From contig JAGOIF010000010.1 of assembly GCA_017995775.1 (NCBI GenBank), positions 1 to 41,918 of the forward strand: 41,918 bases of DNA, read 5' to 3'. Below the pieces are notes generated by a model. The model made no database searches. It saw nothing but the letters and a program-made list of their open reading frames with translations, and was not told where the DNA came from. Below, one piece after another: positions 963 through 36,100 of this stretch. Source of the stretch: Aliarcobacter sp. GTDB lineage: Bacteria; Campylobacterota; Campylobacteria; Campylobacterales; Arcobacteraceae. The position numbers and the translations under genes were made by a program. How positions within the stretch are numbered: the stretch's first letter is position 1; each line of letters opens with the position of its first letter.

Positions 963-1253
963 ATGACTGTTGATGATAATTTAATAGCAAAATTAGCGAA
1001 ACTATCTAGTTTAGAAATAGATGATTCAAGAAAAGAAAAACTAAAAACAGAACTAGCAGATATTATAAACTTTGTTGAAAATTTAAGTGAAATTGATGTA
1101 TCAAACATCGAAGCCACATTTAGCCCAATCGAAGGTGGAACACCACTTAGAGAAGATGTTACAAATCAAGATTTAGAGCTTTCAAAACATATTTTAAAAC
1201 ATGCTCCAAAAAGTGAAGATGGTTATTTTATAGTTCCTAAAATAATAGAATAA
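963..1253 (+). CDS. gatC: Aspartyl/glutamyl-tRNA amidotransferase subunit C
   Basis: Small subunit of the GatCAB complex, which converts Glu-tRNA(Gln) (and Asp-tRNA(Asn) where needed) to the amidated form in the cytoplasm. At 96 residues it has the usual family length. It shows the typical N-terminal helix (LAKLSSLEI), the central FVENLSEIDV segment and the conserved PLREDV stretch near residue 60. An AAGGAAAATC ribosome site precedes the ATG. gatA and gatB are not in the window, so the complex is encoded at scattered loci. The next gene starts 9 bases after the stop, so the two are likely co-transcribed. Confidence 0.95.
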   Translation: MTVDDNLIAKLAKLSSLEIDDSRKEKLKTELADIINFVENLSEIDVSNIEATFSPIEGGTPLREDVTNQDLELSKHILKHAPKSEDGYFIVPKIIE

Positions 1254-1262
1254 GGACAATTT

Positions 1263-1604
1263 ATGATTAAGGTTTATGGAATAAAAACCTGAGACTCTGT
1301 TAGAAAAGCCTTAAGGTTTTTTAAGGACAACAACAAAGAAGTAGAGTTTTTTGATACAAAAAAAGAGACTCCAGCTTCAACTTCTATAAAGTCTTGGATA
1401 GAAAAAACAAATGTTGATTTAGTGTTTAATTCAAAAGGAACTAAGTATAAAAGCCTTGGACTAAAAGAATTAAATCTTGATGAAAATGGTAAGTTTGAAT
1501 GGCTTTGTAAAGAGCCTATGCTTTTAAAAAGACCAATTATTGAGTTTGATGATATTGTTATCGTGGGATTTAATGAAGATATTTATAGTAAGACTTTTTT
1601 ATAA
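1263..1604 (+). CDS. ArsC/Spx-family redox protein, predicted selenoprotein (in-frame TGA = Sec)
   Basis: Reading from the ATG at 1263 gives a 113-residue thioredoxin-fold protein of the arsenate reductase/Spx/YffB family if the TGA at 1290-1292 is read through. Residues 4-16 read VYGIKT-TGA-DSVRKA. Family members have the catalytic cysteine at exactly this place (YGIKxCDxxRKA), so TGA replaces the redox Cys codon. After the TGA the frame stays open and conserved to the end, including LLKRPII near residue 90, and the length is normal. A SECIS-like hairpin lies at 1309-1326. The AAGGA site at 1252-1256 sits 6 bases before the ATG, and the gene follows gatC by 9 bases. Substrate is unknown: the family holds arsenate reductases, Spx regulators and uncharacterised reductases. 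The alternative is a pseudogene with one Cys-to-stop change, which the hairpin and intact remainder argue against. Confidence 0.82.
1309..1326 (+). promoter_or_regulatory. Candidate bacterial SECIS hairpin
   Basis: A perfect 6-bp stem (CCTTAA with TTAAGG) closes a six-base loop GGTTTT inside the coding sequence. The loop begins 22 bases after the in-frame TGA at 1290-1292. Known bacterial SECIS elements have a short upper stem, a small loop with a G in its first positions, and a loop roughly 16-37 bases after the UGA; this hairpin meets all three. The loop also contains GGU, as in the E. coli fdhF element. SelB recognition is inferred, not shown. Confidence 0.75.
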
Positions 1605-33112: not shown

Positions 33113-36100
33113 TTGGGATGCTAGATATTTAGCTTTTACAAAGTCTTTTTTCCCACTTCCTAGTTTTGGTATTTCTTCTACAATTTTTATTTCACTTGGA
33201 ATCATAAGTTTATTATCAAAGTTTTTTAGAATCTTTTCTTTTAGCTCTTGGATAAACTCTTTATTTGCATTGGAAATCAAAAGAATAATCTTTTCCCCTT
33301 TTTTTTCATCTTCTAAACTTGTAACTAAAAAATCAATCAAATTATCAGTTGATTCAATGAACTTTGATATTAGCTCTTCAATAGCGCCTAAGCTTATCAT
33401 TTCACCGCCTATTTTAGCAAACCTTGAATATCTATCAACTATTGTTAAAAAGCCATCCTCATCAAGCTTTCCCTTATCTCCTGTAATATAATATGTTTTT
33501 GCATTTATTACTTTTAAAGCTTTTTTTGTTCTATCCTCATCATCTAAATATGATTTCATTACTTGAATTCCAGAAATTAAAATCATTCCTTCTTCATTTA
33601 CTTTTAGCTCTTTAAAAGTTACTGGATCTACAACTTTTATAGTAGTTCCTGGAATTGCCATTCCTACAGTTCCAGCTTTTTGCCCTTTTTGAATACTAAA
33701 ATCAGGACTTAAAACATCGGGTAAATTACAAGTGGCCACAGGTGAAGTCTCTGTTGTTCCAAAACCTTCTAAGATATCTTTTGCAAATCTTTTTTTAAAT
33801 TCAATTCGTACATCTTCCCTTAGTTTTTCAGCTCCTGAAACAACAAGTCTTAGACTTTCAAACATTAAAGAATGAATTTTTTGATTTTTTGTATACAGCC
33901 TAAAAAAAGTTGAAGTACCACACATAATAGTAACCTTATAAGAACTAATCAATTTAGCGATGGCTAAACCATCAGTTGGATCAGGATGTGCTACACATCT
34001 AATTCCTTCTATTAAAGGCAAATATGTAGTTACAACTATTCCAAAAGCATGAAATAAAGGCAAAGAACCTAAGATAATATCTTCATCGTTTACATTTATG
34101 ATATTTGCTATTTGTTGTGCATTTCCTAAAATATTATCTCCACTTAGCTCTATTCCTTTTGGAGTTCCTTCACTTCCCGATGAAAATAAAATTAAAACCG
34201 TATCATCTTTTTTTGTTTTTGTTAAATATATAAGTTTTGAAAGAAAACTTGGAAGAATTTTTACAGATAAAAACACCGATAAACTTTTTGCTTTTGAAAT
34301 ATTTTGTCTTAAATCTTCAAGATAAATAAGCTCAACATCTTCAAAAGCTTCTTTTAAATCAATGCCACGAAGTTCAAGTTTTTCTATAAATTTTCTTGAT
34401 GTAATAATAGATTTTATTTGTGCTTTTGAAATGCAATATTTCAAGGTTTCTATTTGGCTTGTGTAGTTTAAATTTACAGCAGTTTTTCCCATTAATAATA
34501 CAGAATAATTTATAAAAGCTCCCGCTGTGCTAGATGGCAGTAATATTCCTACATTTTGATTTTCAATTTGTTTTTTTAGTAAATTTTTAAACACTATTGA
34601 AGCTGTTAAAAATTTATGTCCACTTAATTCTAATCCTGTAGAATCTGTAAAAATCATATTATTTTTAAGCTCTTTTAATCTATTAAAAATAGTTTCATTT
34701 AAAGGTTTTAGATTTTTAATATGTTCTTGCCAAGATTTCGTAGATAAATTTATAATTTGTTTTTTTACACTTATTATATTTGCATTTTCTTTTTTCATAT
34801 ATCTTGCAAAAGAGATAGTAACACTATTTGTTCTATTTGATTTTTTGAACTTTTGATTTGCTCTACTAAACATAGATTCCCAAAGTCCTCTAATATAAAA
34901 AGGTACCACTTTTACATCAGTGTTTGTAAGTTCTAAAATCTTTTCAAATCCTTTTTTAAACTCTCCTAAATGCCCATTTCTAGTGATAGATCCTTCAGGA
35001 AAAATCACAACAATATTCCCTTCATCTAACTGTTTTGCAATTATTTTAATAGTAGTTTTACTTGAAGCATTTGATATGGGAATGGCATTAAACATTCTAA
35101 AAATCCATTTTATATACCATTTTGAATAAATAGTTTTATCCATCACAAATCTTACTTCTTTAGGAACAGCCATTAAAACAACAGCCCAATCTATCCATGA
35201 AATATGATTTCCTAAAAGTAAAACTCCACCTGTTTGAGGAATATTTGTAATTCCATTTACTTCAAGTTTATATTTCATTCCTACAATCGTTTTTAAAAAT
35301 AATAATATTAAAGATTGAGGAAGTTGATAAATTGTATACATTGTTCCTATAAGTGTAATTAATAATATCAAATATATAGTTTTTAATGGATCAAACCCAT
35401 AATAAGAAACAATAGTTGTCATTCCTAGCATCAAAAACATACTAACAGAGTGAAACCAGTTGTTTCCTGCAAGTATTGTTCCTAGAACTTTTTTCTTTGC
35501 ATTAAACTGTATTAATGCATTTAAAGGAACAATAAACATTCCTCCAAAAAACCCAAAAAATAAAAAGATTATTGCAAGAAGAATGGGACTTGCAACTAGT
35601 GTTGAAATATATAATGTTAATGCCATTCCAAATGCAGCTAAAGGTATGGTTCCCACTTCAATATAATATTTTGAAATCTTTGAATACATTATAGATCCAA
35701 TTGCAATTCCAATTCCAGATGCTCCTATTACTCCATTTATAATAGATACATCTGATATTCCTAAATACATTTTTGCAAAAGATGGGAAAACGGCCATTGT
35801 TGATTGGGAGATTCCCCAAAAAACTGATAAGCCTATAACTGATAAAAATATAGCATTATTAGATGTAAGAATTTTCATATTGTTTTGCAGTAATTTACCT
35901 TGAAACAGCTCTTTTTTATTTAAAGTTAAATCTTTATTTTTATTATATGAAGTATTAATATTCTTTAAAAACAAAAATGAAACTAGCATCTCAAGAAAAG
36001 CAAATGGCACGATATAGTAAGTTAATGGCAATATAGCACTTAGTAATTCTTCTTTTGTTGTAAGTGTTTGTAAATTGTTATTATTATAGAAAAATTCAAA

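Follow-up and report, generated by a model that had tools for sequence, protein, structure and literature searches.

The window, the whole stretch of DNA analysed here, comprises 41,918 nucleotides from a draft Aliarcobacter sp. genome of 2.5 Mb in 209 contigs. A gene for a predicted ArsC/YffB-like selenoprotein (TIGR01617, PF03960) lies on its plus strand at positions 1263–1604. The reading frame consists of ATG and eight more codons (nine in total), a TGA at 1290–1292, an open frame and a terminal TAA at 1602–1604, and would give a protein of 113 residues with UGA, at codon 10, read as selenocysteine (Sec). This layout is as given in a preliminary description, which was prepared from the sequence alone and which had also proposed a ribosome site ahead of the ATG. 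The probable ribosome-binding site, AAGGA (1252–1256, plus strand), is spaced six bases 5' of the ATG and overlaps the stop codon of the upstream neighbour, gatC (963–1253, plus strand). The gene tgt (partial) is a further neighbour, and a Tsx-like channel gene lies downstream on the minus strand (1639–2505). By alignment to orthologues, the TGA occupies the catalytic Cys codon, as the preliminary description had claimed, and is predicted to encode Sec10; it also aligns with the catalytic Cys of YffB/ArsC-like proteins having known structures, and homology is found on either side of it. From the sequence, the in-frame stop of this gene almost certainly inserts Sec into the active site of a protein resembling thiol reductases. 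Two other candidates for TGA readthrough in the window, at 34050 (plus strand) and 30125 (minus strand), fall inside or opposite longer open reading frames, look like chance frames, and were rejected.

Orthologues are present in 93 of the 104 Arcobacteraceae genomes searched, and 18 of them, the window's included, carry one internal TGA. This TGA sits on the Cys codon in every case (18 of 18), and each frame continues for approximately 103 residues. The 17 genomes other than that of the window span several Arcobacteraceae genera; the TGA form is carried by Arcobacter sp. UBA7394 (L120) and Arcobacter sp. EP1 (L122), and single-contig assemblies are found among the TGA genomes (G091 and G035). 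Outside the family, no TGA form was found among approximately the best 150 matches listed from an order-level sample. Downstream of the TGA, dN/dS is 0.12–0.29 in the TGA–TGA pairs tested, which are under purifying selection, and the decay after TGA that the preliminary description had named as evidence against a selenoprotein is not seen in TGA-bearing relatives. The orthologues of the same genus are all stop-free (26 of 26) with TGT or TGC at the codon, an observation that, taken alone, is compatible with a recent mutation or error in the window gene. However, with TGA recurring there in 17 further genomes, it is more than a coincidence, and a single-base error is very unlikely. Within the genus only Cys codons accompany the window gene, which apparently gained its Sec form when one allele replaced another. 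Among the Cys orthologues, one (L212, genome G059) has an in-frame TAA near its C-terminus, and its frame stops early after VGFK.

A predicted SECIS hairpin is located at 1309–1326 (plus strand), with stem arms CCUUAA (1309–1314) and UUAAGG (1321–1326) and the loop GGUUUU (1315–1320). The published rules for bacterial SECIS elements specify a loop of 3–9 nucleotides, a stem of 4–16 base pairs, a G in the first two loop positions and a distance of 16–37 nucleotides from UGA (PMC13188914). The window hairpin agrees with this model in loop, stem and spacing, as its loop of 6 nucleotides starts with GG and begins 22 nucleotides past the UGA, and its stem has six base pairs. In all 18 TGA genes a hairpin starts 16–17 nucleotides past the TGA and has a six-base-pair stem and G as the first loop base, with the stem variants CCUUAA/UUAAGG, CUUUAA/UUAAAG and CUUUGA/UCAAAG. 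The hairpin shows compensatory changes: two stem pairs are changed on both sides in the 18-gene alignment (five double-changed cells), and among 500 shuffles none had as many such cells or as high a covariation score. One TGA gene (L202, at 1265–1312 on the minus strand in genome G066) has the 5' arm moved by one nucleotide relative to the frame and two residues unlike those of other Sec forms, and retains the hairpin with a 5-nucleotide loop.

Some cautions apply to the hairpin. In DNA this rich in AT, a permissive count of hairpins carried no information, so a loop G and a defined position were then required, a criterion set after the sequences had been seen; on our own scale, an equally high-scoring hairpin follows approximately 1.2% of codon positions in the window genes. 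The window hairpin is no more stable than shuffled sequences (z of -0.17). When the whole region is folded, another structure has the lowest energy and the pair probability of the hairpin is approximately 0.16; the hairpin becomes the minimum-energy fold only when about the first 14 nucleotides or more past the UGA are omitted. The hairpin with a UUAA loop that does form the minimum-energy fold is disfavoured, since its loop lacks a G and the alignment of the 18 genes backs the other register. The loop of the window hairpin is also some 4–6 nucleotides farther from the UGA than in the FdhA and SelD genes of the same genome. For most Sec peptides 6–10% of synonymous recodings give the hairpin, which is therefore partly favoured by the peptide itself. 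An independent-pairs test was non-significant, as the Sec genes are related and too few independent pairs were available. In the tree set, the loop-G hairpin is present in 18 of 18 Sec genes versus 5 of 69 Cys genes. In the tree, these five (L121, L217, L218, L219 and L220) form one group next to a Sec gene; they use both TGT and TGC and are apparently recent Sec-to-Cys revertants that have retained a SECIS-like hairpin.

The machinery for Sec insertion, which the preliminary description had proposed to look for, is encoded in the same genome. The genes selA, selB and selC are clustered on one contig (C168), with selB truncated by the contig end and hence incomplete, and selD, itself containing one TGA, is located elsewhere. 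The tRNA-Sec gene was identified by ARAGORN with anticodon tca, and its Rfam score of 45.1 bits is slightly below the gathering score of 47. There are also two formate dehydrogenase (FdhA) genes with one TGA apiece. Given its own sel genes together with TGA-bearing SelD and FdhA, the organism very probably decodes Sec. Across the family, selB was found in 16 of the 18 TGA genomes, and the two without it are 74% and 86% complete; by itself, the co-occurrence of selB with the TGA form is non-significant (Fisher p 0.14, from hand-tallied counts). The prediction of a selenoprotein thus draws sequence-level support from the 18 TGA genomes, the hairpin and the organism's own Sec system, and decoding of UGA codon 10 as Sec via the hairpin, although predicted, is strongly supported by comparison.

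Sec usage also varies within the genus. Same-genus SelD genes (L050–L074) contain one TGA in 13 genomes, including that of the window, and are stop-free in 12 others, and SelD is therefore a second gene that mixes Sec and non-Sec forms. Four same-genus genomes (G010, G013, G020 and G029) gave no match to SelA, none to SelB at the applied threshold and no full-length one to SelD, and the formate dehydrogenase of G029 is without TGA. Loss of the Sec trait within the genus is probable for these four.

The origin of the Sec allele was examined with a protein tree computed without columns 9–22. In this tree the window gene and five Sec genes from other genera make up a starred group, and the Cys genes of the genus share a starred clade with those from other genera, apart from the window gene. 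The flanking genes, in contrast, are of genus type. Identity to a same-genus genome (G004) is 97% for Tgt (partial) and 96% for GatC, and the Tsx-like gene downstream likewise matches the genus. The window protein has just 71% identity to its G004 orthologue and 80% to the Sec allele of another genus. The G004 protein, which has the same sequence as the Arcobacter caeni RW17-10 orthologue (L118), shares 80–93% identity with many congeners and 70–75% with the most distant ones. At the DNA level, similarity to G004 passes from 96% in gatC to 55–85% in the window gene and partially recovers downstream of approximately position 1626. Because the tree groups the window gene with Sec genes of other genera within genus-type flanks, the simplest reading is that a Sec allele apparently replaced the genus Cys allele in place behind gatC, which would mark the 5' border of the exchanged segment. 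A new gain of Sec within the genus had been considered and was abandoned after the family tree and the flanks indicated allele replacement. A plasmid search gave no match.

Alternatively, the Sec allele may be ancestral and have been kept in the window lineage while the rest of the genus changed to Cys, with no horizontal replacement. Sec genes do occur at the same locus across several genera, and Sec-to-Cys reversions occur in the family. However, retention does not readily account for a protein so divergent between flanks that are 96–97% identical to G004, for the drop in DNA similarity to same-genus species at the 5' edge of the gene, or for the starred clade in which Cys genes of this and other genera lie distant from the window gene. 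We consider retention unlikely, and less likely than replacement.

The preliminary description had placed the protein in the ArsC/Spx family. At the level of the broad family this assignment stands: with C placed at the TGA, the scores are 61.4 bits for Pfam ArsC (PF03960; cut-off 24) and 88.8 bits for the NCBIfam model TIGR01617, arsC_related (cut-off 75.05). More specific models were not reached, including the arsenate reductase ArsC (TIGR00014; 37.2 versus a cut-off of 106.05 bits), Spx (29.5 versus 152 bits), NF041106 ArsC_rel_Se_1 (28.7 versus 85 bits) and the YffB equivalog NF008107 (55.7 versus 121 bits). An AlphaFold2 model (pLDDT 95.6) places residue 10 immediately ahead of a helix formed by residues 11–22, and its closest fold in the PDB is YffB of Pseudomonas aeruginosa (1rw1, TM 0.91), followed by other ArsC-like proteins and Spx. 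YffB of Brucella, a proposed thiol reductase, binds glutathione, and it has a GX3CX3K motif and a single Arg where arsenate reductases have a triad (PMC3169414). The window protein shares the YffB-type fold and GX3CX3K/R motif, as G6-X3-U10-X3-R14, together with R90. It is YffB-like rather than a canonical arsenate reductase or Spx, and in this respect the earlier assignment needs to be narrowed. The active site reads UDSV, with V at +3 in all Sec forms, among which no second Cys is conserved. A selenylsulfide would for this reason have to be resolved by an external thiol, and on balance we lean towards a thiol reductase with one selenol. Glutathione is doubtful as the partner, since the one glutathione-synthetase-like (GSH-S_ATP) match examined in the genus is RimK.

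A true arsenate reductase, in which Sec would speed arsenate reduction, is improbable. Membership in PF03960 and Sec at the catalytic Cys position are in its favour, as is R90, which matches Arg94 of E. coli ArsC. The position of Arg60, however, is occupied by a residue other than Arg. Arg107 falls outside the alignment, and the ArsC arginine triad was not recovered. The score is also far from the arsC cut-off, the neighbours are tgt and gatC, and a search of the genome for ACR3 found no such exporter. Still less probable is a redox regulator of the Spx/MgsR type that binds RNA polymerase and uses Sec as a sensor. The NCBIfam name of TIGR01617, 'Spx/MgsR family RNA polymerase-binding regulatory protein', and the match of the predicted model to Spx structures suggest this role, but the CXXC redox switch of Spx is absent, with V rather than Cys at +3 in every Sec form, the score is far under the Spx cut-off, and YffB 1rw1 is closer in fold. 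The fragmented draft genome and the uniformly Cys-encoding orthologues of the genus might suggest a Cys gene whose TGA arose recently by nonsense mutation or through a mistake in sequencing or assembly. This reading has hardly any probability left and was rejected in view of the 17 other TGA genomes and the tree, in which the window allele groups with TGA genes of other genera and not as the genus Cys gene with one change; the SECIS-like hairpin likewise argues against it.

We therefore propose the following explanation, to which we assign a probability of roughly 0.88 as a whole. SelB and Sec-tRNA(Sec), directed by the hairpin, would decode UGA at codon 10 and place Sec just ahead of helix 1 in a YffB/ArsC-like protein of the thioredoxin fold. 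This residue would attack an oxidised substrate to give a selenylsulfide, which would then be resolved by an external thiol. The Sec allele is one of a set of Sec genes in Arcobacteraceae and would have replaced the Cys allele of the genus in place, behind gatC, and in another group of the family Sec would have changed back to Cys, leaving the hairpin behind. The more specific combination of a horizontal exchange of Cys for Sec in place behind gatC with a change from Sec to Cys that left the hairpin intact elsewhere in the family, both in an apparently undescribed YffB-type reductase with one selenol, we regard as fairly probable.

If correct, these findings describe a natural experiment in Sec/Cys exchange within one orthologous gene. 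Related bacteria would carry Sec, Cys, and Cys with a relict SECIS at one locus, and both the costs and benefits of Sec versus Cys and the gain and loss of a SECIS could be tested within a single gene. A group of UxxV selenoproteins would also join a family that is usually annotated as arsenate reductase or Spx, through a gene that an ordinary gene caller would skip or report as a fragment.

Selenoproteins of the ArsC family have been found previously in metagenomes, as the preliminary description had correctly noted. A Sec arsenate reductase with UxxS was described from the Sargasso Sea (PMC1088965), and the GOS data contain ArsC 1 (pfam03960, UxxS) and Arsenate reductase 2 (cd03032, UxxC) (PMC2398784). 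As in the window protein, Sec occupies the catalytic position of an ArsC-family fold in these proteins, and a bacterial SECIS lies downstream. In contrast, the window clade has UxxV and belongs to Arcobacteraceae, and it offers a comparison of three kinds of allele at a single locus, namely Sec, Cys and Cys with hairpin. The ArsC family (seleno)protein NF041106, with UxxC (PMC13188914), is likewise ArsC-related with Sec members, although the window protein scores well below its cut-off and has no second Cys at +3. YffB (P. aeruginosa 1rw1; Brucella melitensis 2kok, PMC3169414) has the closest fold and shares the GX3(C/U)X3(K/R) motif and the one Arg that replaces the ArsC triad; it uses Cys where the window protein has Sec, and its equivalog model is unreached. 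ArsC-like selenoproteins are also known from the sequenced bacteria Desulfotalea psychrophila and Desulfuromonas acetoxidans (PMC1794560), which are deltaproteobacteria. In a survey of selenoproteins in epsilonproteobacteria, ArsC, arsenate and Spx go unmentioned in the main text (PMC4607533), and among the open-licence papers listed for selenoproteins with Arcobacter, Campylobacterota, Spx or ArsC, judged mostly by title and abstract, none evidently deals with the UxxV clade. Sec in the ArsC family is already known, and the UxxV group of Arcobacteraceae adds to it.
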